Of a stretch of DNA of 64,000 nt, positions 1 through 18,500 are shown in pieces. A program made the translations under genes and the position numbers. A model generated the notes under the pieces. It was not told the origin of the DNA. It worked only from the letters and a program-made list of their open reading frames with translations, and made no database searches. The DNA is taken from NCBI RefSeq assembly GCF_017812015.1, contig NZ_JADQTN010000002.1:310001-374000 (forward strand), given 5' to 3'. The DNA comes from Pontixanthobacter sp. CEM42 (GTDB lineage Bacteria > Pseudomonadota > Alphaproteobacteria > Sphingomonadales > Sphingomonadaceae). How positions within the stretch are numbered: position 1 is the stretch's first letter; each line of letters starts with the position of its first letter.

Positions 1-256
1 TCAGATCATGTTTGGCGATGAAGTTCTGGTGCTTCTTCGGCGAACATTTGCTGATACCGAGAATGGTCGCACCAGCCTTCTCAAAATCGGCTTTGAGAGC
101 GGAGAAATCCTTCGCTTCATTGGTGCAGCCGGGGGTGTTGTCCTTGGGATAGAAGAACAAGACCAATTTTTGCCCTTTGAAATCGGACGCTTTCACAGTT
201 CCGCCATCGGGCGTTTCCATTGGAATATCGGGCATCGTCGAACCAGCTTCAGTCAT
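1..256 (-). CDS. bcp: Bcp/PrxQ-type peroxiredoxin (3' end outside window)
   Basis: The first 85 codons are visible. The protein is a thiol peroxidase that reduces hydrogen and alkyl peroxides in the cytoplasm, recycled by thioredoxin. It opens MTEAGSTMPDIPM and carries the family core FYPKDNTPGCTNEAKDFS at about residues 40-57, where the Cys in PGCT is the peroxidatic residue. A second Cys five residues on, usual in Bcp, is replaced here by Lys/Asp. Another Cys in GISKCSPKKH near residue 73 may matter for resolving. The ATG overlaps the glnE stop codon as ATGA, so the two are probably translationally coupled. The missing part is the C-terminal half. Confidence 0.93.
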   Translation of the reverse strand, partial: MTEAGSTMPDIPMETPDGGTVKASDFKGQKLVLFFYPKDNTPGCTNEAKDFSALKADFEKAGATILGISKCSPKKHQNFIAKHDL

Positions 257-2970: not shown

Positions 2971-3065
2971 TGCCCTTGCCCCAATTCGCCAGCTTTGCAA
3001 TGGAGGCGCATCACAAATCCATCGCTGGCCCATTGCGGCTGCGCGAGGACCGAAGAGGAATTCAC

Positions 3066-4736
3066 ATGATCCGCAAATGCCTTGCTTTATCGGCTGCGCT
3101 TATGCTCGCCGCATGCAATACCGCACCCGAACTGGATATTCCCGATGTGGAGCCGGGCGAGATTTCGCAAGAGACGATGGTCGATATCACCCGTCAACTG
3201 TCTTCTGACGAGTTCGATGGCCGGATGCCTGGCACGGCGGGCGAGGAGAAAACCGTCACGCTACTGATCGAGAAATATAAAGCCGCAGGACTGAAGCCGG
3301 GCAATGGCGATAGCTGGGTTCAGAAAGTTCCGCTGGTTGAAATTACTGGCAAGGATTTCTCACCCCTGACGATCAAAGGAGAGGGCACAGAGATCAATCT
3401 GGAAGCGCGAAAAGATTGGGTCGGCGTGACCTACCGCGAAGACGCGACCACTTCGCTGGAAGATAGCGAGTTGGTATTCGTCGGTTACGGAATCACCGCA
3501 CCGGAGCGCGGCTGGAACGACTATGAAGGTCTCGACATGGCGGGCAAAACTGCCGTCATTCTGGTCAACGACCCCGACTATGGTACCGGCACGCTAGAGG
3601 GCCCCTTCAATGGCGATGCGATGACCTATTACGGGCGCTGGACCTATAAGTATGAAGCCGCAGCCAAGGCTGGCGCAGCAGGCGCGATCATTGTCCATGA
3701 TACCGAGCCGGCATCCTATGGCTGGAACGTGGTCGAAAGCAGCTGGTCCGGCCCACAAGCCTATGCCCAACGCGGCGCGAATGCACCTGAGCTAACACTG
3801 GTAAATGGTTGGGTGCAAAAAGATGCAGCCGCCAAGATTATGGAGACCGCCGGTCAGGATCTGGCCAAGCTATCCGAAGCAGCGAAGGAAAAGGGCTTCA
3901 AAGCGGTACCGCTCGGCCTAACCGCCAGTGCCAGCTTCTCCAACGATATCAAGAAGTATGAAACGCAGAACGTGATCGGGATCCTGCCCGGGACCGAGCG
4001 TCCCGATGAGTATGTAATGCACACCGCGCATTGGGATCATCTCGGTCGCTGCACAGCAGCACCTGATGGAGACGACATCTGCAATGGTGCTATCGACAAT
4101 GCGACGGGTACCGCAGCGTTGGTCGCTCTCGCACAAGCGCATGCGCAGGCAGGCGCGCCCGCACGCAGCTTGGTTTTCTTGGCAGTGACGGCTGAAGAAC
4201 AAGGCTTGCTCGGCGCAGACTATTACGCAGCCAATCCGATCTTCCCGCTCGCGCAAACCGTTGGCGGCATCAATATGGACGCCCTGCCAGTGGTGGGTGT
4301 TTCGAAAGACGTGACAGTCGTGGGACCCGGCAAATCCAAGCTTGACGACTTCCTGAACAAGGCGCTCGAACTCGATGGCCGCACTGCGACACCCAATCCG
4401 AACCCAGAAGCAGGATATTACTATCGCTCGGATCATTTCGCCTTTGCCAAGCGCGGCGTGCCGATGCTCTATGTCAAAGGCGGCGAAGATCTTGTCGATG
4501 GTGGCCGCGAGGCTGGTGAGGCAGCGGCGAAAGACTACCGCGCCAACCGCTATCATGGACCTAAAGATGAGTTCGATGAGAGCTGGGATTGGAGCGGGGT
4601 GATGGCCGATTTGCAACTCTTCTACCGCCTTGGCCAAATGCTCGGCAACAGCACTAGCTGGCCCAATTGGGTCGAGGGTGATGAGTTCGAAGGAATCCGC
4701 AACGAAAGCTGCGCGGCTGCCGAAAGCGGCTGCTGA
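3066..4736 (+). CDS. M28-family metallopeptidase lipoprotein with PA domain
   Basis: Probable zinc aminopeptidase or carboxypeptidase-like enzyme on the periplasmic side. The start at 3066 follows agaggaa and gives a lipoprotein signal, MIRKCLALSAALMLAACN, with Cys17 as lipidation site; an upstream in-frame ATG at 2970 would bury it. A protease-associated insert covers roughly residues 130-290. M28 metal ligands and catalytic acid are all visible: HTAHWDHLG near 320, GAIDNATG near 343, TAEEQGL near 375, NMDAL near 403 and RSDHFAF near 455. Substrate unknown. It is divergent from glnE across a 95-base gap. Confidence 0.92.
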   Translation: MIRKCLALSAALMLAACNTAPELDIPDVEPGEISQETMVDITRQLSSDEFDGRMPGTAGEEKTVTLLIEKYKAAGLKPGNGDSWVQKVPLVEITGKDFSPLTIKGEGTEINLEARKDWVGVTYREDATTSLEDSELVFVGYGITAPERGWNDYEGLDMAGKTAVILVNDPDYGTGTLEGPFNGDAMTYYGRWTYKYEAAAKAGAAGAIIVHDTEPASYGWNVVESSWSGPQAYAQRGANAPELTLVNGWVQKDAAAKIMETAGQDLAKLSEAAKEKGFKAVPLGLTASASFSNDIKKYETQNVIGILPGTERPDEYVMHTAHWDHLGRCTAAPDGDDICNGAIDNATGTAALVALAQAHAQAGAPARSLVFLAVTAEEQGLLGADYYAANPIFPLAQTVGGINMDALPVVGVSKDVTVVGPGKSKLDDFLNKALELDGRTATPNPNPEAGYYYRSDHFAFAKRGVPMLYVKGGEDLVDGGREAGEAAAKDYRANRYHGPKDEFDESWDWSGVMADLQLFYRLGQMLGNSTSWPNWVEGDEFEGIRNESCAAAESGC

Positions 4737-4770
4737 ACTCTATACCAACCGAACCTCCGAAAGCCGGTCC

Positions 4771-5763
4771 ATGACCATCCATATGCCGCCCGAATGGGCA
4801 CCGCAGGATTGGTTGTGGATCGGCTTTCCACATGATGCAGACGAATGGCCGGGCTATCTTGAGCGTGCTCAAGAGCAAATCGCCGCTTTTGCCAATGCGG
4901 TTGCTGAAAGCGGGCAAGAGGTTCGCTTGCTTGTGCGCAATGAAGCCAATGAGGCGCGGGCACGCGAATTGGTCAGCGATGCCGTAACGCTGGAACCCCG
5001 AAGCTACGGCGATATCTGGCTGCGCGATACGGGGCCTTTGATCGTTTCGCGCGGGGCACAGCGCGTCGCCAAACGCTTTGGCTTCAATGGCTGGGGCGGT
5101 AAATATCTGATGGAAGGTGACCAAACAATCGGTTCGGAGATTGCCGCCGATGCTGGCTTGCTGGTCGAAATATCCGACTGGATTCTCGAAGGCGGCGCGA
5201 TTGATGGTGACGGCACCGGATTGGTCGTAACTACCGAACAATGTTTGCTCAACCCAAACCGCAATCCTGATCTATCGCGCGCTGATATCGAGCAAAGATT
5301 GAAGGACGACTTGGGGTTCGAGCGTGTACTATGGCTCGGCGACGGCTTGGTCAACGATCACACCGACGGCCATGTCGACAACCTCGCGCGGTTTGTCGCC
5401 GCGAATACTTTGCTCATTCCCACACCATCGGGACCGGATGATCCGAATATCGGGATCTATGGTGCTGCTCGCACTCGCGCCGAAGCCGCCGAAGTGAGCA
5501 TCATCGACGTCCCGTCACCCGGACTGATTGAACGCGACGGACAAATCGAACCGGCGAGCTACGTCAACTTCGCCATCACAACACATCTGGTTGTGGTGCC
5601 CACCTTCGGCTCCGGGCATGATGATGCAGGTGTCGCCGCGATAGCCGCACTGTTCGCTGATCGGGCAACGATTGGACTTCCTGCCGATGCCGTTCTGGCT
5701 GGAGGCGGCGGGTTCCATTGTGCCAGCCAGCAATTGCCCGCCGGAAAGTTAACCAGCCGTTAG
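4771..5763 (+). CDS. aguA: Agmatine deiminase
   Basis: Converts agmatine to N-carbamoylputrescine plus ammonia (polyamine synthesis or agmatine catabolism), cytoplasmic. Family signatures of the PAD/agmatine deiminase fold are complete: WLRDTGP near residue 87, EGGAIDGDGTG near 140, NDHTDGHVDNLARF near 192-205 and the catalytic Cys in GGGFHCASQQLP near 316. At 330 residues it is close to the bacterial family. Start chosen at MTIHMPPEWAPQ, which matches the usual N-terminus; the longer frame from 4630 overlaps the peptidase. The usual partner aguB (N-carbamoylputrescine amidase) is not adjacent. Confidence 0.93.
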   Translation: MTIHMPPEWAPQDWLWIGFPHDADEWPGYLERAQEQIAAFANAVAESGQEVRLLVRNEANEARARELVSDAVTLEPRSYGDIWLRDTGPLIVSRGAQRVAKRFGFNGWGGKYLMEGDQTIGSEIAADAGLLVEISDWILEGGAIDGDGTGLVVTTEQCLLNPNRNPDLSRADIEQRLKDDLGFERVLWLGDGLVNDHTDGHVDNLARFVAANTLLIPTPSGPDDPNIGIYGAARTRAEAAEVSIIDVPSPGLIERDGQIEPASYVNFAITTHLVVVPTFGSGHDDAGVAAIAALFADRATIGLPADAVLAGGGGFHCASQQLPAGKLTSR

Positions 5764-5786
5764 GATTTGCCGACGATAGCAGGCGC

Positions 5787-5909
5787 ATGGCCAATGCAAT
5801 CAAAGCCCTCAATATCTCTTCCGACGATGTAATCGCGCCTGTGCGTGCGATGATCGTCAGCGGCTGCGGACTGGCCTTGATTTTCGCAGGGACATTCCAT
5901 CCTTTCTGA
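5787..5909 (+). CDS. Possible small membrane protein, 40 residues
   Basis: A short reading frame that begins 23 bases after aguA and ends 72 bases before the next gene. The product begins MANAIKALNISSDD and ends with one hydrophobic stretch, MIVSGCGLALIFAGTF, enough for a single membrane span. The upstream sequence has only a weak ribosome site. I do not recognise it. It could be a real small protein or chance. Confidence 0.35.
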   Translation: MANAIKALNISSDDVIAPVRAMIVSGCGLALIFAGTFHPF

Positions 5910-5914
5910 CATTT

Positions 5915-5932
5915 CGGCGTAACCGAACGCCG
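5915..5932. terminator. Perfect 6-bp hairpin after aguA and small ORF
   Basis: Arms cggcgt and acgccg with a six-base loop, six bases after the small-ORF stop. It could end aguA transcripts, but no run of T follows. Confidence 0.35.
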
Positions 5933-5949
5933 CCCATGATCGAATGGCA

Positions 5950-5969
5950 GTGAAACACCACAGTTTCAC
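5950..5969. promoter_or_regulatory. Perfect 7-bp inverted repeat just before the DUF1223 gene
   Basis: Arms gtgaaac and gtttcac with a six-base spacer, ending 12 bases before the start codon at 5982. It may be an operator or a leader hairpin that limits access to the ribosome site. Confidence 0.4.
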
Positions 5970-5981
5970 GAGAGCTTTCGC

Positions 5982-6740
5982 ATGCAGAAATCGGGTCTTA
6001 TCGTCGCCAGCGGAATCACCGCTCTTGTCGCAATCGGGGCGGCCACTTTGTCATCTGGGCAAGTCGATGCGCGGCAGGGAACCAAATTATCTGGTCCGAT
6101 TGCATCGGCAAATGCACCCGTCGTACTCGAGCTCTTCACCAGTCAGGGCTGCTCATCCTGTCCTCCCGCCGACAAACTCGCCACGCGCCTTGCGAAAGAC
6201 CCTTCGCTGCTCGTGATCTCCCGCCCGGTGACCTATTGGGACCGGCTAGGCTGGAAAGACACGCTGGGCAAGCAAGAGAACACCGATCTTCAGCGCGCCT
6301 ATGCCCGTAAAGGGAATGAGGGCGCAGGAGTCTACACGCCGCAGATCGTAGTCGATGGCCGTCATGGAGCAGTCGGCTCGAATGAGCGCAATGTAACCGC
6401 CCTAGCGCGCGAAGCCGGTATGAAAAACAAGCCGCAACTTGTGATCGACAAATCGGCAAGCGGTGCCGTCACCATCTCCATCATGGGCAAGTTTGCTCCA
6501 GACGCTGAACTTAGCCTGGTGGCCCTGTCCTCCCACGAAACTGTGAAGATCGGTCGCGGTGAGAATGGTGGGCGGACGATCAACTACACCAATGTTCTCG
6601 TCGACGAGACCCGCCTCGGCACTGCCAAACGAACACTCACAATTGCCCCAAAGCAAATGCAGAACCGTTATGCCGACCGCTACGCCGTAATCCTGCGTGA
6701 GCCCAACGCTGGACCGATTGTGGCAGGGCAAATGCTCTAG
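5982..6740 (+). CDS. DUF1223 (thioredoxin-like) exported protein
   Basis: DUF1223 family, a thioredoxin-like fold of unknown cellular role. The N-terminus is a signal peptide or anchor (residues about 5-28). The domain starts with PVVLELFTSQGCSSCPPADKL at about residues 46-66, whose CSSC motif is the expected redox pair. Further family landmarks are HVTYWDRLGWKD-like (here PVTYWDRLGWKD) near 85 and YTPQIVVDGR near 120. Length 252 is typical. It converges on the TauE gene with only two bases between stops. Confidence 0.85.
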   Translation: MQKSGLIVASGITALVAIGAATLSSGQVDARQGTKLSGPIASANAPVVLELFTSQGCSSCPPADKLATRLAKDPSLLVISRPVTYWDRLGWKDTLGKQENTDLQRAYARKGNEGAGVYTPQIVVDGRHGAVGSNERNVTALAREAGMKNKPQLVIDKSASGAVTISIMGKFAPDAELSLVALSSHETVKIGRGENGGRTINYTNVLVDETRLGTAKRTLTIAPKQMQNRYADRYAVILREPNAGPIVAGQML

Positions 6741-6742
6741 GC

Positions 6743-7492
6743 CTAACTGCCCAGTAACCTTGCAAGCGACGCCAGCGCAGTCGCAGCCAACACGACCATG
6801 ACGAAGATGCGCCACGCCGTATCGCTGACCTTACCAAAGGCTAGCGCGCCCACGTGATTGCCGAGCAGAACCGCAGGAAAAAGCAGAACGCCGAGGACAA
6901 TCAAACCCCAATCCAGCAAGCCAATCGCCGCACCCGACCCAAGACCAGCTCCGGCAGCAATCGTGAAGATAAGCAGCATCGAAGGTTTGGCGATCTCTTT
7001 AGGAATATCGCGGCCCAGATAATAGGGGACGACCGGCGGGCCAGGCATACCTGCAAAGCCGGTTAGCAATCCGCTGATGATGCCGACGATACCGGTCTGG
7101 ACAGCGCCAGGCTGATGTGCAGGCCGCTTGGGCAAGAACATCGCAAAGAACGCCGATAGCGCGATCAAAGCGATCAATACCCGCGCCAGCGCCGGAGCTG
7201 TTATGCTGAGGAGATAGAGACCCGGGAACGTTGCAATGACAACCAACAGGCTGATGGTCCACGCCGACTTTTCGGCTTCCCGCATGATGCGTTTGATCTC
7301 ACTCAGACCGATCAGCACCGCCACGACGTTCGTTGCCAGCACTGCCTCAACCGGGGACATCGCCAGCGCAAGCACAGGTACCAGCAAAATGGCCAAGCCA
7401 AACCCCGCCAGCCCGCGAATGAAAGCCGCACCAAATGCTGCAGCAAGCGCCACTGCAATCTGCAGAGCCGTATAGCTCGCTAGCATTTCCAT
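6743..7492 (-). CDS. TauE/SafE-family membrane permease
   Basis: An inner-membrane protein of 249 residues with about seven or eight hydrophobic segments. It has the two internally repeated family motifs: RGLAGFGLAILLVPVL near residue 25 and LLTGFAGMPGPPVVPYYL near 142. Members move sulfite, sulfoacetate or other small organic anions outward or inward; the substrate cannot be read here. It begins 14 bases after the thrS stop on the same strand, so it is probably co-transcribed with thrS and subject to the same leader. Confidence 0.88.
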   Translation of the reverse strand: MEMLASYTALQIAVALAAAFGAAFIRGLAGFGLAILLVPVLALAMSPVEAVLATNVVAVLIGLSEIKRIMREAEKSAWTISLLVVIATFPGLYLLSITAPALARVLIALIALSAFFAMFLPKRPAHQPGAVQTGIVGIISGLLTGFAGMPGPPVVPYYLGRDIPKEIAKPSMLLIFTIAAGAGLGSGAAIGLLDWGLIVLGVLLFPAVLLGNHVGALAFGKVSDTAWRIFVMVVLAATALASLARLLGS

Positions 7493-7506
7493 CTCAGCTC
7501 AACGCA

Positions 7507-9525
7507 TCACGCTGTTGTTACCTCAGGGCGCAAATCGGGCGCGGTAGCGTTTGCCTTCAGCATCGCGATTGCTTCATCAAGCGAAAGGACTTGCTGGTCC
7601 TTTTCACCGAGAGTGCGGATGGCAACCGTGCCTTCCTCCTGCTCTCGCTTGCCGACAACCAGCAGATGCGGAACCTTCTTCAGCGAATGTTCGCGAACCT
7701 TATAATTGATCTTCTCGTTCCGAAGGTCAGCCTCGGCGCGAATGCCGGCGGCTTCCAGCTTCGCCAGAACTTCGCCTGCATATCCGTCAATATCCGAAAC
7801 AATCGGAGCAACTACGGCCTGCATAGGCGCGAGCCATAGCGGGAGCTTGCCTGCATAGTTCTCGATCAGAATGCCGATAAAGCGCTCATACGAACCAAAG
7901 ATTGCGCGGTGCAGCATCACAGGGCGATGCTTGCCGCCATCTTCGCCGATAAATGTTGCATCAAGACGTTCGGGCAGCACGCGGTCAGACTGGATCGTAC
8001 CGACCTGCCATGTCCGGCCAATCGCATCGGTCAGATGCCATTCGAGCTTAGGCGCATAGAATGCACCTTCGCCAGGCAGTTCTTCCCAACCATATTCCTC
8101 AGTCGCCATGCCAGCATCGGCCACCGCATCGCGCAGTTCCTGCTCGGCCTTGTCCCAATCTTTGTCAGAGCCAAAGCGCTGCTCCGGGCGCGTGGCAAGT
8201 TTGATCGCGAACTTCTCAAAACCAAGGTCTTTGTAGACCCTCGCTGCGAGCTGGCAGAACTTGCGCGTTTCTTCGACCACCTGATCTTCCGTGCAGAAGA
8301 TATGTGCGTCATCCTGCGTGAACTGACGCACACGCATCAATCCGTGCAGTGCGCCATGCGGTTCATTGCGGTGGCAACAACCCATTTCGCCAAGCCGGAT
8401 CGGCAGATCGCGATAAGACGTGATTCCTTGTTTGAAGACCTGAACATGCGCTGGGCAGTTCATTGGCTTGAGCGCCATCCAATCAGCGTCGCCGCTGATG
8501 ACGGGGCCTTCGTCTTCAACATTGGGAACCTCATCCGGGATCACGAACATGTTCTCGCGATACTTGCCCCAGTGGCCCGATTTCTCCCATTGGCGCGCGT
8601 CCATCACTTGCGGCGTTTTGATTTCCTGATAGCCGCCGCCATCCATCATCCGGCGCATATAGGCCTCCAGCTCGCGCCAGATTTTGTAGCCGTTCGGGTG
8701 CCAGAAGACGCTACCATGCGCCTCTTCCTGCAAGTGGAATAGATCCATCTCGCGGCCAAGCTTACGGTGATCACGTTTGCCCGCTTCTTCCAAGCGGTGA
8801 AGATGGGCGTTGAGCTGCTTCTTATTGAGCCAGCCCGTGCCGTAAATCCGCGTTAGCTGTGCATTCGCCTGATCGCCGCGCCAGTAAGCACCAGCGACGC
8901 GCATCAGCTTGAATGCTGCAGGATCGAGTTTGCCCGTGCTCGGAAGGTGAGGCCCGCGGCACATATCCATCCAGTCATCGCCGGACCAATAGACCGTCAG
9001 CTCTTCGCCTTCAGGCAATTCTGCCGCCCATTCGGCCTTAAAGCTCTCGCCATCGGCTTGCCACTTGTCGATCAATGCCTGACGGCTCCACGCTTCACGG
9101 CGCAGAGGTTTGTCAGCCTTGATGATTTCGCGCATCTTCTCTTCGATCTTGGGAAGATCATCCATGCCAAACGGATCGCGGCCTTCAGGCGCCATCACAT
9201 CGTAATAGAAGCCGTCATCTGTCGAGGGGCCGAAGGTAATCTGCGTGCCGGGCCAGATCGATTGGACTGCCTCTGCCAAAACGTGCGCATAATCGTGACG
9301 CGCGAGTTCAAGCGCGTCTTCTTCGTCGCGAGATGTAATGAGCGCTAGCTCGGCATCGCCTTCGAACGGGCGGCCAAGATCGCGCACTTCGCCGTCAACT
9401 TTTGCTGCCAAAGCCGCTTTCGCTAGGCCCGGACCGATAGCCGCCGCCACGTCCGCAGGCGTCGAGCCTTCGGGCATTTCGCGTACCGATCCATCGGGCA
9501 GGCTGATTTTGAAAAGTTCGCTCAT
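7507..9525 (-). CDS. thrS: Threonyl-tRNA synthetase
   Basis: Class II synthetase charging tRNA-Thr. Domain order matches the bacterial enzyme: TGS domain at about residues 1-60, editing (HxxxH-type) domain with [12 protein letters not shown] near 80, catalytic core with [11 protein letters not shown] (zinc ligand Cys) and [22 protein letters not shown], and an anticodon-binding domain from about 570. Length 672 is standard. The start is preceded by a weak ggacga site. A long 5' leader with a Thr-rich peptide and hairpins lies upstream (9526-9738), which suggests threonine- or tRNA-Thr-responsive control. Confidence 0.97.
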
Positions 9526-9547
9526 CGAATTCGTCCGTTCTTATTTT

Positions 9548-9577
9548 GGTGCGCCATGGCAGAATCATGCGCGCACC
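9548..9577 (-). promoter_or_regulatory. Bulged hairpin close to thrS start
   Basis: On the minus strand, arms ggtgcgc and gcgcacc close a hairpin that continues for four more pairs past a one-base bulge. It ends 22 bases before the thrS start and is followed by AAAATAAG, not by a T run, so it does not look like an intrinsic terminator. It might influence ribosome loading on thrS. Confidence 0.45.
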
Positions 9578-9625
9578 GGAAGAGTCGGTGTCCTTAAACT
9601 TACGATTTCAGGAGGTGGCACCGTA

Positions 9626-9643
9626 CCGCCCGAAACCGGGCGG
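9626..9643 (-). promoter_or_regulatory. Candidate attenuator hairpin in thrS leader
   Basis: A perfect 7-bp stem, ccgcccg/cgggcgg with a GTTT loop on the minus strand, starting 12 bases after the leader-peptide stop. Its left arm can instead pair with gggggcag inside the leader-peptide gene (codons 17-19), which gives two mutually exclusive structures, as in leader-peptide attenuators. No U tract follows, so termination would need Rho or the effect may be on translation. Confidence 0.55.
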
Positions 9644-9654
9644 CAGTGGCAGGC

Positions 9655-9726
9655 TCAACGCGCGACCATCTGCCCCCGGACAAAGCCGGTGGTAGTGGTT
9701 GTGGTCAAGATACTGACTTTGTGCAT
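9655..9726 (-). CDS. Threonine-rich leader peptide of thrS (23 residues)
   Basis: A 24-codon frame between the thrS promoter and thrS. The peptide starts MHKVSILTTTTTTGFVRG; codons 8-13 are six threonine codons in a row (acc aca acc act acc acc). Such a run of the cognate amino acid is the hallmark of ribosome-mediated attenuation (known for thr, his, leu, trp and pheST leaders). A ribosome stalled on these codons would leave the following gggggcag free to pair with the hairpin at 9626-9643. No clear ribosome site precedes the ATG; the promoter geometry suggests a leaderless message. Confidence 0.72.
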   Translation of the reverse strand: MHKVSILTTTTTTGFVRGQMVAR

Positions 9727-9732
9727 AGCGAT

Positions 9733-9761
9733 TATGTAGCCGCGAAGGATTTAACATTCAA
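9733..9761 (-). promoter_or_regulatory. Predicted sigma-70 promoter of thrS-tauE
   Basis: On the minus strand TTGAAT (9761-9756) and TACATA (9738-9733) are 17 bases apart. A start about seven bases after the -10 falls at the ATG of the leader peptide (9726). The -35 overlaps the stop codon of phoD. Confidence 0.5.
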
Positions 9762-11443
9762 CCAATGTCGCCAATGTCGAGTTTATGGCTACCTGCCTCG
9801 CTGGAAATGCGCTGCGTCCCGGCCAACGCGGTAGACTTCGCCCGGACAGTTTCAAGGAAACGGTACTCCGATGTAGCCTTTGTGGGCGTTAGCTCGACTG
9901 ACATATAGCCGCGGTTCTTGGTGTTGGCCCATTTGAGCTGCTCGTTCGCCTGCACCGATTGCGCGGCCATGTCCTCCGGCTTGATCCAGGTCAGGAAACC
10001 TTCCATGCCGGGAGAGGATACCGAGTGACCGGCGAATTCGATTCCAGCAGGAACGCCCATATTGCCGAGCTCTGACGCCCAGCCATTGTGGCTGTCGCCC
10101 GCCAGAACGATCAGGTTGGCGTCAGCCTCTTGCGCAGATTTGAGCAAGCGTTCGCGCGCCGCGGGATAGCCGTCCCACGCATCCATATTGAACGGTAGGC
10201 CAGCCATGCTGGTGAGCACGCCGCCCATGATCCGGTTGCGGATATATTCGGGCAGAGCATCGGTCATGCCCTCGGCGATATTCGGAGAGGATTTGAGGCT
10301 GGTCATCACGGTCTGCTGGAGCAGAACTTGCCACGCCTTCCCGGCTTTGCGTGAGGCCATCATGCCATCGGCCAGCCAGCCTTCTTGCACTTCGCCCATC
10401 AGGGTCCGCGATGAATCGCGCCATTCATCATTCTCGAATGCCTGCAATGCAGCGAGAATTTTGCCGGGGTCTTTGTCGCCGCGCCCGATAATCTCGCGCA
10501 GATCGAACGGCTTGGTCCGGGCCTCAAGTCGGGTTTCTAGGCGGAACAGCGTCGCCAGATCGCCAATCTCATAGGCAGCCCAAGGCGCATCTGAGACCGG
10601 CATCCATTCGCGTTTGGCACGCACCGCCGCTCGCTTGCGCGCGTCCCACGGTCCTTCGGTCTCAAGCTGGTGGTTCTGCGCGCCCGTTGCGTAGCTGTCA
10701 TTTGCGCTCTCATGATCGTCAGGCACATGCAGCATCGGGAATAGTTGGTGTAGCCGCTGCAGATCAGGATCGCTGCGATATTGTGCATAACGTGCGCGGT
10801 AATCGGCCAGCTCGATGATCTCGTGATCGATACCGCGCATTCTGCCCGGCAGTTTCTGCTCCTCGGTCGGATAGACACCCCGACCATATTCATAGATGTA
10901 ATCACCAGTGTGCAGCACCAGATCAGTGTCATCCGCTTCAGCTATGTGCGCATAGGCATTGAACCAGCCGAAGCCGATATTGGAGCAGCCGACGACCGCC
11001 AGCCGGAAGCGAGAGGTGGGCCCCTGCGGCAAAGTCCGCGTGCGGCCGATCTGAGACATTTGCCCATCGGGCGCGAAAAATCGGAAGTAATACCAGCTGT
11101 CAGCCTGCAAGCCATTCGCGACCGGCTTCACGCACCAATCATGCTCGGCGCGCGCAGTCACGCTTCCACCTGCGACCACCTCCGCAAAGGCCGCATCGCG
11201 CGACACTTCCCATTCCAAAGTGGTGTCCTGCGCCGCCTGAAACCGGGACCAGAGCAAGACACTGTCCGCGCTCGGTTCGCCGCTCGCGACGCCATATCCG
11301 AAACCCGGCAATGCTTTCGCCGTGACCGTTCCAGAAAGCGCAGTCAGTCCCGCGCCAAGCAATCCAGTACGAAACAGAGTGCGGCGGTCAAGCTGGGGTA
11401 TGCGGGCTGCCGCCGAAGGCATTGGGAGTGAGTCAGTCTTCAT
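9758..11443 (-). CDS. phoD: PhoD-type alkaline phosphatase, Tat-exported
   Basis: A periplasmic phosphodiesterase/phosphomonoesterase of the PhoD family, which frees phosphate from esters and uses Fe/Ca. The N-terminus carries a twin-arginine signal, RRTLFRTGLLGAGLTAL (residues about 21-37). The family core VLHTGDYIYEYGRGVYP lies near residue 178, HVPDDHESANDSY near 240 and LAGDSHNGWASELG near 450. Length 561 is normal. It is alone on its transcript: the thrS promoter lies at its 3' end and a divergent operon at its 5' side. A Pho box was not evident upstream. Confidence 0.9.
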   Translation of the reverse strand: MKTDSLPMPSAAARIPQLDRRTLFRTGLLGAGLTALSGTVTAKALPGFGYGVASGEPSADSVLLWSRFQAAQDTTLEWEVSRDAAFAEVVAGGSVTARAEHDWCVKPVANGLQADSWYYFRFFAPDGQMSQIGRTRTLPQGPTSRFRLAVVGCSNIGFGWFNAYAHIAEADDTDLVLHTGDYIYEYGRGVYPTEEQKLPGRMRGIDHEIIELADYRARYAQYRSDPDLQRLHQLFPMLHVPDDHESANDSYATGAQNHQLETEGPWDARKRAAVRAKREWMPVSDAPWAAYEIGDLATLFRLETRLEARTKPFDLREIIGRGDKDPGKILAALQAFENDEWRDSSRTLMGEVQEGWLADGMMASRKAGKAWQVLLQQTVMTSLKSSPNIAEGMTDALPEYIRNRIMGGVLTSMAGLPFNMDAWDGYPAARERLLKSAQEADANLIVLAGDSHNGWASELGNMGVPAGIEFAGHSVSSPGMEGFLTWIKPEDMAAQSVQANEQLKWANTKNRGYMSVELTPTKATSEYRFLETVRAKSTALAGTQRISSEAGSHKLDIGDIG

Positions 11444-11516
11444 TCCGAACGCATAGGCCTACCGTGTGACACAGCCAAGACTTGCAGGCAATTGGGACAA
11501 GCAACCCAATCATTAT

Positions 11517-11566
11517 GTCAATGATGCTTGACTTATCGTGAATCCAATGTAAATGAAGCTTTACAT
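11517..11566 (+). promoter_or_regulatory. Promoter with two dyads ahead of the small-membrane-protein/XRE operon
   Basis: TTGACT at 11528-11533 is a good -35; the -10 falls near 11549-11555 (gtaaat). Two perfect inverted repeats with six-base spacers sit on it: gtcaa/ttgac (11517-11532) over the -35 and atgtaaa/tttacat (11547-11566) over the -10. Centres are 32 bp apart, about three helix turns. They are candidate operators for the XRE regulator encoded in the same operon. Confidence 0.5.
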
Positions 11567-11586
11567 AACGAAAGGGATCGTTGACT

Positions 11587-11760
11587 ATGACTCAAGTTTA
11601 CAAAGCTCTGCTGCTTGCTTCCGTAATGATAGGAATTGCCGTGCTGGCAGTGTTCGACATTGTTCCGGAAGAGTTCGCCCAATGGGCACCGCTCGCTCTT
11701 CTCGCAATCTTCCCGACCGCGTGGATGGGAAGCCACAGAAAATGTGAGGTGGCCCAATGA
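11587..11760 (+). CDS. Small membrane protein (57 residues), first gene of XRE operon
   Basis: The product starts MTQVYKALLLASVMIGIAVLAVF and has two hydrophobic segments (about residues 5-23 and 33-48) around the turn DIVPEEFAQW. The ribosome site aaaggga is nine bases ahead of the ATG. Its stop overlaps the next start as ATGA. I do not recognise the family; position in an operon with a membrane protein and an XRE regulator, and a clear ribosome site, argue that it is real. Confidence 0.7.
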   Translation: MTQVYKALLLASVMIGIAVLAVFDIVPEEFAQWAPLALLAIFPTAWMGSHRKCEVAQ

Positions 11761-12371
11761 CCGACACACTGAAAGCTCCGCAATCAGGCAGAGGTCCGAT
11801 GGTATATGTCGGGATAATGTTCGCCGCGATTGGAACGGTGATCGCGCTCGCCGCAACCGGTGCGATCAACGGACCGACAGCGCTTGTCCTGATGATTGCC
11901 CCGCTATGGCTGATCATTCCAGCGATCAAGGCAGCCAATCGCAAGGCCAATGCCTCTTGCGGCGGGAAGGGCATAGCAAACAGGCGCTATCTCAGGCGGA
12001 TCGCGATGTTCACATCATTCTATCTCGCCACGCTCGCGCTGATGACATTTGTTTCGAAGAGCTATGATCCGTCGCTGGAGCTGCGCACGTTTCTGGCCAT
12101 CTTGCCTGGTTTAGCCATCGCTGGGATGTTCTGGGCAATCGGGCGACTAATCATCGAACAAACCGATGAATTCATCCGCATGCTCACTATCCGCCAATCG
12201 CTCTGGGCCACAGGTTTTGCATTGAGTGCTGCGTCGGTCTGGGGCTTTCTCGAGCAAGCCGATATTGTCATTCATGTTGACGCATATTGGTGGGCTGTGT
12301 GGTGGTTCTTCGGCCTTGGGGTCGGCGCAATTGCCAACCGCATCCAATATGGCACATGGGGCGCGGCATGA
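11757..12371 (+). CDS. Four-TM membrane protein of unknown function
   Basis: The 204-residue product has hydrophobic segments near residues 15-35, 40-60, 85-103, 115-135, 145-165 and 175-190, so about four to six spans. A conserved-looking central section, RRIAMFTSFYLATLALMTF then IEQTDEFIRMLTIRQSLWATGFAL, separates them. Many sphingomonads pair such a protein with a small XRE regulator. Function unknown. It overlaps both neighbours by four bases, so the three genes are one translational unit. Confidence 0.75.
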   Translation: MTDTLKAPQSGRGPMVYVGIMFAAIGTVIALAATGAINGPTALVLMIAPLWLIIPAIKAANRKANASCGGKGIANRRYLRRIAMFTSFYLATLALMTFVSKSYDPSLELRTFLAILPGLAIAGMFWAIGRLIIEQTDEFIRMLTIRQSLWATGFALSAASVWGFLEQADIVIHVDAYWWAVWWFFGLGVGAIANRIQYGTWGAA

Positions 12372-12559
12372 AGAACCGGCTCAAGGTACTTCGTGCAGAA
12401 CGCGATTGGAGCCAGCAAGATTTGGCCGATCGGCTCGGCGTATCGCGGCAGAGCGTCAACGCGATCGAGACCGGTAAATATGATCCGTCATTGCCGCTGG
12501 CCTTCACCATCGCCGAAACTTTTGCTATGTCTATTGAAGAGATATTCGAGCGAGGCTGA
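12368..12559 (+). CDS. XRE-family transcriptional regulator (63 residues)
   Basis: A minimal helix-turn-helix protein: MKNRLKVLRAERDWSQQDLADRLGVSRQSVNAIETGKYDPSLPLAF, with the recognition helix at about residues 27-38. Almost the whole protein is the HTH domain, with a short dimerisation tail. Start at 12368 is set by the ATGA overlap; the longer frame from 12287 is within the upstream gene. It probably controls its own operon through the dyads at 11517-11566. Confidence 0.88.
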   Translation: MKNRLKVLRAERDWSQQDLADRLGVSRQSVNAIETGKYDPSLPLAFTIAETFAMSIEEIFERG

Positions 12560-12574
12560 TCGGAGGGATCACAA

Positions 12575-12676
12575 ATGCGATATGCTGTTCTCTTGTTTGT
12601 AGCCTTTTTGGGCGGCTGTCACGACGGGCCTGCCGGACAATGCGACGAACCAATGGAACTTCCAACATTGTATTGA
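12575..12676 (+). CDS. Very small predicted lipoprotein (33 residues)
   Basis: Fifteen bases after the XRE stop. A strong ribosome site, cggaggga, precedes the ATG by eight bases. The peptide MRYAVLLFVAFLGGCHDGPAG has a hydrophobic core and a lipobox LGGC with Cys15; only 18 residues would remain after processing, including one more Cys. Unrecognised. The quality of the ribosome site and lipobox makes chance less likely. Confidence 0.5.
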   Translation: MRYAVLLFVAFLGGCHDGPAGQCDEPMELPTLY

Positions 12677-12718
12677 TCACTGCTTGCGTGATGCTGTGTG
12701 ATCGGGAATGAGCGCTGC

Positions 12719-13471
12719 ATGACCAGCGTTCAATTTTTTCAAGTGCCCATTGGTGAGCAGCCTGGTGAGCACATAGCGTTTCGCCATCTGGACCACGCGA
12801 GCCACAAACCCACTCTCGTATTCTTGCCCGGCTATATGTCCGATATGGACGGCGGCAAAGCGACCGCACTGCTCGAATGGGCAGCGCAGCAATCAATCGG
12901 CTGCCTATTGCTTGACTATTCAGGCTGCGGCCAGAGCTGCGGTGACTTTGCCGATGGCACATTGTCCAAATGGCGCGATGAAGTGCTGGCGCTGATCCAG
13001 GCACGCGGAATCGATAATGTGGTTCTGATCGGGTCTTCGATGGGCGGTTGGTTGATGCTGATGATTGCGCTGGCTTTGGGGCCACGCCTGTCGGGAATAG
13101 TTGGCATAGCTTCCGCGCCTGACTTCACTGATTGGGGGCGTTCCGATGCTGACAAGGAGAAACTCGACGCGGGCGAAACCATATTTGATGACAATCCATA
13201 CGGCCCTGAACCCACGCCGATGTATGCCGAATTCTGGAAAGACGGTCAGGCCAACCGGCTTCTGACTTCCGAGATTGCAATCGACTGCCCGGTCCGCCTG
13301 CTGCACGGCGAACGGGACACGGATGTCCCGCACCGCATCAGTTTAGAGATCGCGAAACGGCTCCGTTCGGACGATGTACAGGTAACCTTGATCAAAGACG
13401 GTGATCACCGCCTGTCTCGCGATAGCGATATCACGCTGATGCTGAGTCAGGTGCAAAACCTGCTCGACTAG
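12719..13471 (+). CDS. Alpha/beta hydrolase
   Basis: A 250-residue serine hydrolase of the alpha/beta fold; substrate unknown. Catalytic triad by motif: nucleophile Ser in LIGSSMGGW near residue 106, Asp in LLHGERDTDVPH near 198 and His in DGDHRLS near 228. HFLPGYMSDMDG-type oxyanion loop (here FLPGYMSDMDGGK) lies near 42. The start MTSVQFFQVP is preferred over one seven codons upstream. Cytoplasmic: no signal peptide. It heads a likely operon with the TPR and luciferase-like genes (18 bases to the next start). Confidence 0.88.
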   Translation: MTSVQFFQVPIGEQPGEHIAFRHLDHASHKPTLVFLPGYMSDMDGGKATALLEWAAQQSIGCLLLDYSGCGQSCGDFADGTLSKWRDEVLALIQARGIDNVVLIGSSMGGWLMLMIALALGPRLSGIVGIASAPDFTDWGRSDADKEKLDAGETIFDDNPYGPEPTPMYAEFWKDGQANRLLTSEIAIDCPVRLLHGERDTDVPHRISLEIAKRLRSDDVQVTLIKDGDHRLSRDSDITLMLSQVQNLLD

Positions 13472-13489
13472 TCCTACGGAGATTTTCTG

Positions 13490-14353
13490 GTGCTTTCCGC
13501 TACTCTTGCCCTGCTGCTGCAAGTCGGCCCCAATCCGGGCGCCGCGCCGGTTACCGCCGTGCCGCCCGAACTTGATGAGCTGCGCCGAAGACAGCGCACC
13601 GAACAAAATGCCAATGGCAATGACAATGACGGTCTCGCTCCCGTCGCCGACCGCCTGCAGTCATGTCTCGTCCGCGCAGAGCAAGATAGCACCGCGGCGC
13701 GGATTGAAGCCGAGGCATGGTTCAATAGCGCAATCGGGCTAACCCGCGCGCAAGCTCTGCAATGCCGCGGCTATGCAGAGGCCAATTTGGGCCAATGGGC
13801 CGATGCTGCGCGCAGCTTCATTGCCGCGCGCGATGATAGCGATGCAGTCGATGCCAAATATCGCGCACGGCTAGGCGCGATGGCTGCCAACGCATTGCTG
13901 ACTGCGGGAAATACCGAAAGCGCATTGCCCGTGCTGGATCGTGCCAAGGATGACTCAACCGAAGCAGAGTTCACCCAATTGAGTGCAGAGATAGAGATCG
14001 ACCGCGCTCGCGCCTTAGTAAGCCAGAACAAGCTGGCCGCCGCATCGGAAGCCCTCTCGGAAGCGCGGACACTCGCCCCGATGAGTGTCCGCGCTTGGCT
14101 TCTGTCAGCGACACTGTCGCGCCGGACTGATGATCTGGCAGCGGCACAAACTCAGATCGAGCAGGCAGCGATGCTTGATCCTGCCAATCCGGAGATTGGC
14201 TTGGAGGCCGGTGTGATCGCCGTACTTTCGGGCAATGACGGGGCAGCACGGCTGAGCTGGCAATCGATTGTGACGCTTGCGCCAGATAGTCCCCAAGCAA
14301 CTACCGCAAAATCCTATCTCGCTCAGCTAGAGAACACCGAAGAGCAACCATGA
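13490..14353 (+). CDS. Tetratricopeptide-repeat exported protein
   Basis: GTG start with cggag nine bases ahead. A short hydrophobic N-terminus (MLSATLALLLQVGPNP) suggests export. After a charged linker rich in N and D, repeats with TPR spacing run from about residue 70 to the end (for example AQALQCRGYAEANLGQWADAA, AQTQIEQAAMLDPANPEIGLE). TPRs form protein-protein scaffolds; no catalytic motif. The stop overlaps the next start as ATGA. Confidence 0.8.
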   Translation: MLSATLALLLQVGPNPGAAPVTAVPPELDELRRRQRTEQNANGNDNDGLAPVADRLQSCLVRAEQDSTAARIEAEAWFNSAIGLTRAQALQCRGYAEANLGQWADAARSFIAARDDSDAVDAKYRARLGAMAANALLTAGNTESALPVLDRAKDDSTEAEFTQLSAEIEIDRARALVSQNKLAAASEALSEARTLAPMSVRAWLLSATLSRRTDDLAAAQTQIEQAAMLDPANPEIGLEAGVIAVLSGNDGAARLSWQSIVTLAPDSPQATTAKSYLAQLENTEEQP

Positions 14354-15333
14354 TCCCCCTATCCGTTCTCGATCTGGTGCCCGTCCGCGAAAGCGGGACA
14401 CTTTCCGAAGCGTATTCAGCAGCGGCAAGTCTGGCCCAAGCCGCCGAGCGCTGCGAATATAAGCGCTATTGGGTTGCCGAACATCACGCGATGGAAGGCA
14501 TTGCAGGTGCTGCGGCATCGGTCGTGCTCGCTCATATCGGCAACGCAACATCAACTATTCGCATCGGCTCAGGCGGGATCATGCTGCCCAATCACAACCC
14601 GTTTGTGATCGCCGAGCAGTTCGGCACGCTTGCAGCATTGTTCCCCGGACGGATCGACCTCGGCTTGGGAAGAGCACCGGGTGCCGGACCCGAATTGCAA
14701 CGTGCCTTGCGCAAGAATTTGAACCAAGCCGCTGAGTACTTTCCGCAAGATGTGACCGAACTACGAGCGCTGTTCACTGGTGATATCGATTTGCCTGTGA
14801 CCGCCACGCCGGGTCGCGGTGCCGATGTCGAAATGTGGATGCTAGGATCGAGCCTGTTCGGTGCGCAGCTCGCTGCGAAACTGGGCATGCCTTATGCATT
14901 CGCTTCGCATTTCGCGCCCGACCATCTGGATGCCGCGTTGGAAATGTACCGACGAGACTTTCAACCATCGGAGGCTCTCGAAAAGCCACATGCAATGGCA
15001 GCGATGACGATTATTGCGGCTGATACTGACGAGCAGGCGGAACTGATCGCGACGTCGCAATTGCAGGCATTCGTGCGCCTGCGAACCGGTAGTCCCGGCA
15101 AGCTACCGCCGCCAATCGAGTATTATCGCACCTCACTTCCGGCACAAGCACAGGCAATGTTGGCGCATATTGGTCAGGCCAGCGCGATTGGCTCGCCAGC
15201 CACAGTCAAAGCGAATGTCGAAGCGTTTATCAAACGCACCGGGGCGGACGAGATTATCGTTGCCGGCTCAACTTTTGACCCCGAAGACCGCATCCGCTCG
15301 CTCGAACTCACGATGGATGTGTTGGGCGGTTAA
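14350..15333 (+). CDS. LLM-class (bacterial luciferase-like) flavin oxidoreductase
   Basis: A member of the luciferase-like monooxygenase superfamily, using reduced FMN or F420; the group without a known substrate. Motifs: IPLSVLDLVPVRESGT at the N-terminus, YWVAEHHAMEGIAGAA near 38, IRIGSGGIMLPNHNP near 65-80 and RIDLGLGRAPGAGPELQRAL near 100. Length 327 is typical. Translationally coupled to the TPR gene. Confidence 0.9.
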   Translation: MIPLSVLDLVPVRESGTLSEAYSAAASLAQAAERCEYKRYWVAEHHAMEGIAGAAASVVLAHIGNATSTIRIGSGGIMLPNHNPFVIAEQFGTLAALFPGRIDLGLGRAPGAGPELQRALRKNLNQAAEYFPQDVTELRALFTGDIDLPVTATPGRGADVEMWMLGSSLFGAQLAAKLGMPYAFASHFAPDHLDAALEMYRRDFQPSEALEKPHAMAAMTIIAADTDEQAELIATSQLQAFVRLRTGSPGKLPPPIEYYRTSLPAQAQAMLAHIGQASAIGSPATVKANVEAFIKRTGADEIIVAGSTFDPEDRIRSLELTMDVLGG

Positions 15334-15413
15334 GCGTACATCACCGACCCTACGGCTTGGCGGGTCACAGCTTTTCTGCAATCGTATGCAAGAGCCGCTT
15401 GCAGGTCTCGCCC

Positions 15414-15486
15414 GATAGGCCTATCCGCCGCGCATCACAGCCCGCAAACACGCGGCGCTAGGCAATACCAACCGGGCGATGCGCCC
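15414..15486 (+). promoter_or_regulatory. Structured 5' leader of NAD-glutamate dehydrogenase gene
   Basis: Three symmetric elements in a row: the 12-base palindrome gataggcctatc (15414-15425), a 7-bp stem cgccgcg/cgcggcg with an 18-base loop (15426-15457) and a short stem gggcg/cgccc with an ATG loop (15474-15486). The last ends 15 bases before the start codon, just ahead of the ribosome site acggag. They may be a leader RNA, or the palindrome may be an operator. Confidence 0.4.
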
Positions 15487-15500
15487 ACGGAGCTTTACGG

Positions 15501-18500
15501 ATGGGTTCAAATACCACCGGCCAGAGTCCCAAAGGTCAAAGTCCCAAAGATAAACCTCGCAATTTTGCCCCGAAGCCTGTTCGCCGTAAGGCTGAACACA
15601 CAAAGCTGACGGACGCGCTTACCAAGCAAATGCGCGAGTCGCTGCTGCCAGGCGACACCCCGTTTGAAGCGAACAAGCTGCGCGAAGCTGCTGCATTTCT
15701 GCTGGACACAGCCGCACGGCGCGAGACCAAGATTTCATCGATCTCCCTTGCTTCGGCCAGCGATGGTCACCGCTTTATGCGGATTGCCATCGTCAATGAC
15801 GACATGCCGTTTCTTGTCGACTCGCTAGCAGCCACAATCGCAGCGCAGGGCCTCGCGATTGACCGACTGGTTCACCCGGTTGTCGCGGTAACGCGCAACG
15901 AGAATGGCGAGCTCCAGACTATCACCAAGACATCGTCCAAAGACGAAGCGCATGAATCGATGATTTACATCGAAACCACGCGAATCGACGCCAAGAAACG
16001 GCGCGATCTGGAAAAGGTTCTTCGCGTTACCTTGGGTGATGTACGCGCGGCAGTCAGCGATTGGCCCAAACTGCGCGAAGTCATGATCGCCGATGCAGCG
16101 CATGTGCTTGGCTTGGGCGCCGACAAAGAAGGCGCTGCGCTACTTGAATGGCTCGATAACGGCATGCTGACGCAGCTCGGACACGTTACGCGCAAACGCG
16201 ATGGCAGCGAAACCGGCCGGATCGGTATCTGCCGCAAGAGCGCCAAAGAACTCCTGTCCAACCAGTCCTACGATCGTGCCTTTGCATGGTTCGACGATCC
16301 GGCAAACCGCACCAAGCGCGTTCCCCTGATTATCAAGGCGAACCAGCTGGCCAACGTGCACCGGCGTGTTCCGCTCGACCTGTTTCTCGTGCCTGTGGTC
16401 GCGAAGGGCAAGGTGACGGCGTTGTCAGTACACGCCGGGGTTTGGACCAGCGCCGCTTTGGCTGCGAAGCCGGATGAGGTCCCGAGCCTGCGCTCGCATA
16501 TGAGCCGACTGATGGACAAGTTCGGCTTCGATGCCAGCGGCCACGCCGGCAAGGCTCTGGTTCACGCGCTCACCGCATTGCCGCATGATCTGATCATCGG
16601 CTTTTCCGATATCGATATTGCACGCGTCGCGACGGCCATGATGGGTCTTGTCGATCGGCCGCGACCGCGACTTGCTATTGTCGAAGCACCGCTGTCACGC
16701 CACCTCTTCGCCTTTGTTTGGCTGCCGCGCGATATGCTGTCCACGCAGGTCCGCGAGCAAATCCAGACATTGCTCAAAGACGGTGCGGGCGCCCAATTGC
16801 TCGACTGGAGCCTGCAGGTCGAAGGCGGTAATCTGGCGATGCTCCGCTTCGTGCTCGACATCCGCGATGGCGATGCGTGCTTTGATGAAGCAGCGATAGA
16901 ACAACGTATGCAAAACATGCTGCGTGGTTGGTCCGAAGCGGTCGAGCATGAATTGTCTCAGCTGGAAGATGCTGGCCGCGCAGCCGCGATTGCCACGCGC
17001 TATGCCGACATATTCCCGGCTTCCTACCGCACAACATATGGCGCGGTAGAAGCAGCCCGTGACATTCGCCGTATGCGGCACTTGCTGACAATCGACAGCG
17101 CGACATCAGCAAGTCAGGCTCCCCAGCGCGATGCGCGGCTTTACCATTTGGACGGCGATCCAAGCGATTGCCTGCGCCTCAAAATCTACGAGCATGAAGG
17201 TGCCTTGCCTCTGTCAGACGCGGTTCCCGCGCTGGAGAATTTCGGCTTTGAAGTCCGTTCGGAAATTCCAACGGCATTGGATGGCGGCAAGCTCGGTACG
17301 ATACATGACTTCACGCTGGCTCTACCAGCTGGCGTCGATGTCGCGCCAATTCTGGAACGCGCCGATGCAATCGAAGCAGCCATCGCGTCGGTTCTCAACG
17401 AAGTGGCCGAGGATGACCCGTTCAACCGTTTGGTGATTGGCACCGGCCTGGCGGAGCGGGAGGCCAATTGGCTGCGCGCATTCTATCGCTATCTTCGCCA
17501 AGCCGGAATGGGCTTCACCATTTACACTGTGGTCGATGCATTACGCGGGGCACCAGCAGTTACCCGCGCGCTGATCGAACGTTTCACCGCCGCACATGAC
17601 CCTGAATTCTCGGGCAAGCGCGATGACGCCATTGCCAGCGCCGAAGCGGCAATCAAGCAGGGCCTATCCAAAGTCGCAGCGATCAATGATGACCGGTTGC
17701 TGCGCCTGTATCATGCACTGATCAAAGCGATCTTGCGGACCAATTGCTTTGCACCCGCAGGCGCTGAAGCACTGGCCTTTAAAATCCAGTCCGACCTCGT
17801 GCCCAATCTGCCTAAGCCTGTGCCGTGGCGCGAGATATTCGTCTATTCGACCCGCGTCGAAGGCATTCACTTGCGCGCCGGACCAGTTGCGCGGGGCGGG
17901 CTACGCTGGTCCGACCGTCGCGATGACTTCCGCACCGAAGTCCTTGGACTGATGAAAGCACAGCGCGTCAAGAACGCGGTGATTGTACCAACCGGCGCAA
18001 AAGGTGGCTTCTATCCCAAGCAGCTACCTTCACCCGCCATCGACCGCGATGGTTGGGCCGCTGAAGGCCGCGCAAGCTATGAAGTGTTTATCCGCACATT
18101 GCTGACCATCACAGACAATATCGTCGGTGACAAAGTGGTGCACCCCGACGCGGTTGTGCCGCTCGACGGCGAAGATCCCTATTTCGTGGTCGCTGCTGAC
18201 AAGGGCACTGCTACATTTTCTGACGTGGCCAACGGTATCGCTGAATCGCGCGACTTTTGGCTCGACGACGCCTTTGCCAGCGGCGGTTCCAACGGATACG
18301 ATCACAAAGCCATGGGCATTACCGCAAAAGGCGCGTGGGTGTCTGTTCAACGGCATTTCCTTGAAATGGGTGTTGATGTCCAAAGCGATCCGGTCCGCGT
18401 GGTCGGCTGCGGCGATATGTCGGGCGATGTGTTCGGCAACGGTATGCTGCTGTCGAAGAGCATCAAGATTATCGCCGCTTTCGACCACCGACACATCTTT

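Follow-up and report, generated by a model that had tools for sequence, protein, structure and literature searches.

A conserved threonine-codon leader and RNA switch ahead of thrS in Sphingomonadales, a probable ribosome-dependent attenuator

In the window, by which we mean the whole 64,000-nt stretch of Pontixanthobacter sp. CEM42 DNA analysed here, the threonyl-tRNA synthetase gene thrS is preceded by a short open reading frame with six consecutive threonine codons, and the best explanation overall, which sequence comparison makes probable, is that this frame is the leader of a Thr-sensing, ribosome-dependent attenuator of thrS. The two genes and the sensing codons are as follows.

7507..9525, minus strand: thrS, encoding threonyl-tRNA synthetase (672 aa), the proposed regulated gene
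9655-9726, minus strand: leader open reading frame MHKVSILTTTTTTGFVRGQMVAR, ATG start, 23 aa plus stop, from the list of open reading frames
9688..9705, minus strand: six consecutive Thr codons (segment a), the proposed sensing codons

Codons 8-13 of the leader read ACC ACA ACC ACT ACC ACC, all Thr, and the ATG of thrS lies 129 nt downstream of the leader stop. The identity of ThrS is supported by its TGS, tRNA_SAD, class II core and anticodon domains in a domain search. The initial annotation had placed a frame with a Thr run ahead of thrS, and the open reading frame list and our codon reading show that its place, length and content are accurate. It had also read the frame as a sign of attenuation, which the comparison of relatives supports through synonymous Thr codons and a covarying hairpin at a near-fixed distance.

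We pooled the thrS upstream regions of 8 genomes of the genus, 80 named loci and 100 further Sphingomonadales regions into 182 distinct regions, and counted as a leader any ATG or GTG frame of 20-29 codons whose stop lies 30-200 nt before thrS and which has at least 4 Thr in 8 codons. One locus (L009), a weak match that is not thrS, is left out of the scan, and five others (L076, L078, L082, L087 and L089) have an assumed thrS start that does not coincide with a start codon, which puts their distances off by a few codons. The results show that 74 of the 182 regions carry a leader by this rule, with at least 5 Thr in 8 codons in 70 and at least 6 in 55; 3640 dinucleotide shuffles give 7 frames with at least 4 Thr and none with at least 5 or at least 6. 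The count of 74 is a lower bound; the leader of genome G121 falls outside the distance rule. The next-best amino acid is Arg, with at least 4 in 15 regions and at least 5 in 2, and on the reverse complement at least 4 Thr occur in 1 region and at least 5 Val in 13, the Val runs probably being the Thr run in antisense. By the same rule the leader is absent from 108 of the 182 regions, among them that of the nearest relative, G005. A chance or low-complexity Thr run without function could be argued from the many Sphingomonadales in which the leader is missing, but this reading is refuted by the conservation, the shuffle controls, the covariation of the helices and the spacing, and we give it next to no credence. 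The leader is almost certainly real and under selection.

The leader peptide has 22-24 aa in 68 of the 74 leaders, and its stop lies 116-169 nt before thrS in 73. The exception is a locus from a metagenome-assembled genome (L019, 2882-3003), where the leader stop is 50 nt from thrS and most of the helix relay is missing. Counted over all Thr codons of 33 leaders, ACC is used 130 times, ACT 41, ACG 38 and ACA 15. The C-terminal part of the peptide often reads (R/P)xxRGRxVAR, a motif that reflects the codons CGG GGG CGG forming RNA segment b. An alignment of relatives, proposed with the initial annotation as a check, shows that the Thr run is kept, that its codons vary synonymously and that the distance to the hairpin is nearly fixed. 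Absence of the run from close relatives had been named as evidence against attenuation; in the genus, every genome except G005 (7 of 8) has the leader.

We next consider how the leader is distributed within the Sphingomonadales. Named leader loci belong to Erythrobacteraceae and Novosphingobium, with scattered cases in Sphingopyxis, Blastomonas, Sphingorhabdus and Sphingomonas. Mapped onto an 88-row FastTree tree of ThrS, the presence of the leader takes 11 changes to explain (at least 8 when judged by well-supported branches), compared with 26.6-26.8 for shuffled labels; it is thus clustered on the tree, yet repeatedly lost or gained. A covariance model (R1, from alignment A3), built from 37 of 39 rows selected as described below, gives 15 matches in 118 Sphingomonadales genomes at E ≤0.001. 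Fourteen of these precede thrS on its own strand, each in a different genome (6 in the model alignment and 8 not), and the fifteenth (G104) lies inside another coding frame. Seven of the 8 genomes in the genus show a single strong match, at thrS, and all other matches have E >0.1. At G005 (L291) the upstream sequence is unlike the other genus loci, and the leader and the promoter P1 are gone while a P2-like element is kept. At G121 (L289) a small exonuclease-like open reading frame stands between an intact attenuator and thrS; there d2:f is preserved as GCGCGCC/GGCGCGC and stops some 12 nt short of the start of that frame. The natural loss in G005 and the operon insertion in G121 are ready comparisons. 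In the genome of the window itself, no cognate leader is seen at trpE (L192) or ilvB (L190) among the listed open reading frames of at least 20 aa.

The leader is preceded by a promoter-like pair of motifs, P1.

9756..9761, minus strand: P1 -35, TTGAAT, read from the sequence and overlapping the stop codon of an upstream PhoD-family gene
9733..9738, minus strand: P1 -10, TACATA, 17 nt from the -35 and 6 nt before the leader ATG

An E. coli-style consensus scan of 9300-10100, whose consensus is of the E. coli type, scores no promoter. Relatives mostly have TTGA, GTGAC or ATGAC at the place of the -35, one spacer upstream, as read by eye. As for the spacing of the -10, TA lies at -13 or -12 from the leader start in 67 of 74 loci, a count in which the choice of start slightly favoured the -10 spacing, and the figure is 66 of 74 when the start is chosen by length alone; of the 52 loci where only one start is possible, 48 show it. 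Position -1 is occupied by C in 59 of 74. The predicted transcript start is the A of the leader AUG, and from this spacing the leader message is probably leaderless, as is that of S. meliloti trpL. The S. meliloti rnTrpL/peTrpL system is alphaproteobacterial as well, and its published description likewise has the AUG of the upstream frame at the 5' end of the transcript and mutually exclusive structures; it differs in serving Trp biosynthesis, in its transcription terminator and in the trans functions shown there (PMC7298713, PMC10117765). A leaderless start and a product of small-RNA size resemble rnTrpL as described in these sources and could mean that the main action of the leader, as a peptide or as attenuated RNA, is in trans, with control of thrS secondary (PMC7298713, PMC10117765). 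Peptide conservation beyond the Thr run, however, tracks the segment b codons CGG GGG CGG, and the strong R1 matches adjoin thrS, so we regard a mainly trans-acting role as very improbable and return to control of thrS in cis.

Between the Thr codons and thrS we find segments that can form a relay of helices.

9670..9678, minus strand: segment b (CGGGGGCAG), within the leader frame, the proposed partner of c during a stall on the Thr codons
9626..9643, minus strand: c:d hairpin CCGCCCG-GTTT-CGGGCGG, with covariation
9617..9623, minus strand: segment d2, the 5' arm of d2:f, a helix that encloses e
9603..9612, minus strand: segment e (CCTGAAATCG), complementary to 9629-9638, which comprises the loop and 3' arm of c:d
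9586..9593, minus strand: segment f, the 3' arm of d2:f

The c:d hairpin starts about 11 nt past the leader stop and 42-66 nt past the last Thr codon (median 45.5, 70 loci). In a MAFFT alignment of 73 leader regions (L019 left out), 92% of c:d cells and 91% of d:e cells are paired. Double-change cells number 16 for c:d, where shuffles reach at most 13, and 47 for d:e, where they reach at most 19. The b:c helix is paired in 91% of cells and has 8 double-change cells, shuffles giving no more than 5, figures to be read knowing that 86% are still paired when the partner is slid by 3 and that b is also constrained by coding. For d2:f, which in the window has 5 bp, one mismatch and one further pair, 57% of cells are paired on 73 rows against a shuffle mean of 55%, with f shifted by one column in a subgroup. 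In an alignment-free swap test, with partners drawn only from loci with a different helix and 70 loci left after three without an anchor (L070, L121 and L156) were dropped, the own partner of d2:f beats the swapped one in 61 of 70.

We also aligned 39 of the 74 leaders, chosen because their c:d stem is perfect and its loop has 4 nt; d:e and d2:f were not selection criteria. There c:d is 100% paired by construction, with 10 double-change cells; d:e is 97.7% paired, with 7 double-change cells; and d2:f is 99.1% paired, with 30 double-change cells, each with 0 of 500 shuffles. Sliding the partner abolishes the pairing of all three helices in these rows. The c:d and d:e helices are mutually exclusive, and both are backed by covariation. 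A further f:g helix is not supported (41% paired against a shuffle mean of 44%, 73 rows), and the a:b hairpin is 57% paired in a register that fits relatives poorly, rising to 79-88% when slid by 1-3. The leader, the Thr run, the promoter spacing, c:d, d:e and d2:f are established by sequence comparison, and b:c is less firm as a part of the switch.

We next predicted the folding of 70 loci for three ribosome positions: the stop codon, the second Thr codon and the fourth. At the stop, c:d averages 6.65 bp and d:e 0.36 bp; with the ribosome on the second and fourth Thr codon, b:c averages 3.1 and 3.9 bp, c:d 3.5 and 2.7 bp, and d:e 1.8 and 2.2 bp, respectively. On moving from the stop to a Thr-codon position, c:d drops in 57 of 70 loci, d:e grows in 34 of 70, and b:c grows in 58 of 70, the last being zero at the stop by construction. 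The d2:f helix is nearly unchanged on average (up in 21 of 70 and down in 21 of 70). In the RNA of the window, a ribosome on the fourth Thr codon still leaves c:d dominant at 5.13 bp, with b:c at 2.43 and d:e at 0.70. In predicted folding, one locus of the same genus (L005) switches cleanly and L010 shows no switch.

These elements very likely form a Thr-dependent RNA switch, which could work as follows. A P1 transcript beginning at the leader AUG would be leaderless and translated as such. While tRNA-Thr is charged, the ribosome would reach the stop and cover b, so that c:d pairs and e is kept from d; the d2:f hairpin would then be free to form, giving the OFF state, which would end transcription, probably via Rho or another factor. 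With uncharged tRNA-Thr, the ribosome would stall on the Thr codons and leave b exposed to pair with c, which would free d for e; d:e would disrupt c:d and d2:f and give the ON state, with read-through into thrS. A second promoter (P2) past the attenuator would provide a Thr-independent basal supply of thrS. The ribosome stall, the direction of control and the end of transcription in the OFF state are inferred.

The same Thr leader and switch could instead act on thrS translation by masking the ribosome-binding site, a reading that gains from the terminator search given below, in which all but one locus lacked a terminator, and from relatives in which such an output is possible, namely family f62, whose leader end is complementary to the thrS Shine-Dalgarno (SD) region, and G121, whose d2:f lies about 12 nt before the next start. 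In the Sphingomonadales, however, the predicted access of the SD and AUG is nearly equal at the two ribosome positions (70 loci: SD up in 2 and down in 1, AUG up in 7 and down in 5, mean differences 0.00), and the helices in the window lie about 61-118 nt before the start codon. SD masking was rejected for the Sphingomonadales on the predicted access, and we consider a translational output unlikely overall; output mainly at the level of transcription is the reading towards which we lean.

Only one of the 73 Sphingomonadales loci has, between the leader and thrS, a terminator-like hairpin (loop ≤14 nt) with a T-rich tail, and in 55 of the 73 no 8-nt stretch of this interval contains as many as 5 T. 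The attenuation proposed in the initial annotation is supported for the leader and the switch, but the classic intrinsic terminator is absent, so that a transcriptional output is the putative part. Canonical U-tract terminators are not enriched at positions 1-20000 of the window either (17 found and 20.7 expected from shuffles), and the absence of one before thrS therefore says little. A good-looking terminator-like site is seen at 12709-12732 on the plus strand. Because there is no U-tract, a factor, Rho or another, is proposed, and factor-dependent termination is the favoured output; that the factor is Rho is possible but somewhat short of probable. Between c:d and f, C exceeds G in 66 of 70 loci, which is only compatible with a Rho site.

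Downstream of the relay, a second promoter-like element is seen.

9577..9582, minus strand: P2-like -35, CTTCCG, 18 nt before CATGGC
9553..9558, minus strand: P2-like -10, CATGGC, of a putative basal thrS promoter

The pattern CTT(C/T)-N19/20-C(A/T)(T/A/G)(G/A)(G/A)(G/C), set after seeing the alignment, occurs in 68 of the 74 leader regions, where 0.7 would be expected by shuffling, and, with the same post hoc pattern, in 11 of 108 regions without a leader (1.6 expected). Its strict CATGG form is present at 42 of the 74 leader regions and at six of the 108 that have no leader (L002, L104, L118, L144, L159 and L171; 0.3 expected). The P2-like element probably gives thrS its basal expression. 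An in-frame thrS extension or a second upstream frame starting from CCATGG was rejected; by eye, the frame is not conserved. A conserved element just before the thrS start, often TTGTGCCATGG, can fold as a helix g:h, and its place resembles that of the ThrRS-bound hairpin described for E. coli thrS (PMC3858243), as would be expected if ThrRS bound a tRNA-like hairpin and blocked translation, the leader being secondary. The g:h helix, however, is not supported (67% of cells paired against a shuffle mean of 63% and maximum of 67%), the anticodon-like GU is missing in the window, and the fixed CTT-N19/20-CATGG spacing, kept in leader-less relatives, better fits a promoter. Feedback of the E. coli kind is accordingly given little weight, and the leader-based attenuator with a basal promoter is the reading that we carry forward.

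We also looked at thrS in other alphaproteobacterial families, covering 60 of 102 genomes outside the order (L234 in part). Taking one locus per family, a convincing Thr leader is found in 2 of 60 (L209 and L213), and a further one (L207) is doubtful. The families of the two convincing loci, f61 and f62, were sampled more widely. In family f61, 8 of 10 loci (L280 and L282-L288) have Thr-rich, leaderless leaders such as MTARTTTTATTTRTSCGGP. All 8 of these leader loci have a terminator with a U-tract, in seven of the form GACCCTCC...GGAGGGTTTTTT with a matching G-rich arm in the leader, an arrangement that reads as a textbook antiterminator/terminator attenuator before thrS. At L281 of this family the locus is cut by the contig end, with the apparent end of a leader visible.

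In family f62 (L254-L278), 24 of 25 loci have a leaderless frame under TTGACx-N17-TA..., and the 25th was mislocated by the script. All 24 leaders end in Arg-Thr-stop, with CGA ACT TGA in the printed ones, and 15 of the 24 have two adjacent Thr. At 15 loci a duplex between the end of the leader and the thrS SD region is predicted, with a mean of 10.6 bp, and in folding the SD is unpaired at 0.42 when the RNA is free versus 0.49 with the leader masked. A swap test of the duplex between the Thr codons and the SD gives a lower value for the own partner in 6 of 15, and own and swapped partners are not usefully different. A wider reading, which we hold less likely than not, is that alphaproteobacterial thrS is controlled by Thr-reading leaderless upstream frames that arose separately in three or more lineages, unless divergence has obscured a shared origin, and that use a different output device in each: an intrinsic terminator in f61, a terminator-less relay with a basal promoter in the Sphingomonadales, and in f62 a leader end whose Thr codons cover the SD, where a stalled ribosome would be an activator.

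Rfam searches at the gathering score give no family matches at nine related loci, and the region in the window has two weak matches only, on the plus strand. T-box has no match in 9300-9900 of the window at E up to 1, nor at the nine related loci at the gathering score. The thrABC leader (Rfam RF00506) is a known case of a Thr run read by the ribosome; it has mixed Thr/Ile codons and an intrinsic terminator, and it differs in controlling Thr biosynthesis. In E. coli, feedback acts on thrS itself, but the sensor there is the enzyme, ThrRS, which binds an operator on its own mRNA and represses translation, with no leader peptide in the account available (PMC3858243). The closest precedent is Streptomyces lividans TK24, described as having a leaderless thrL with two Thr codons before thrS, followed by one hairpin without U-rich sequence (PMC8079986). 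It shares the leaderless Thr leader peptide before thrS and the hairpin lacking a U-rich tail; it differs in having two Thr codons only, belongs to another phylum and comes from RNA-seq of one strain, and the passages on thrL give no conservation or alternative structures (PMC8079986).

Within the Alphaproteobacteria, the Rhodobacterales uORFC-8-2 motif is described as a Cys upstream frame before cysS for which ribosome-mediated attenuation has been proposed (PMC8632094). Like the thrS leader, it combines an aminoacyl-tRNA synthetase gene, an upstream frame with tandem cognate codons and two stems; it differs in amino acid and gene, in an intrinsic-terminator-like 3' end, in belonging to another order and, as described, in having no Thr (PMC8632094). 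S. meliloti SEP5, a small frame that contains six codons for Thr and three for Lys and lies in the 5'-UTR of an aspartate dehydrogenase gene, has been suggested to be a leader (PMC10117765); it is thus a Thr-rich possible leader in an alphaproteobacterium, but before another gene and with mixed Thr/Lys codons. A small leader coding sequence before trpS is mentioned for C. crescentus (PMC4117421).

The initial annotation had suggested a distinct mode of control and knew of no description. For the Alphaproteobacteria, no thrS leader was found among the papers listed by searches of mainly open-access literature, but S. lividans thrL and the Rhodobacterales cysS frame are precedents. The principle is therefore known, and what appears to be new is the pairing of gene and taxon, the conserved multi-helix relay and the lack of an intrinsic terminator. 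If true, the attenuator would be a third mode of bacterial thrS control, beside ThrRS-mRNA binding and T-boxes, and would extend the attenuators of alphaproteobacterial aminoacyl-tRNA synthetase genes beyond the cysS upstream frame. A relay without a U-tract also raises the testable question of ribosome-dependent attenuators without intrinsic terminators in GC-rich bacteria. For the cell, the leader would probably provide a means of sensing threonine shortage.
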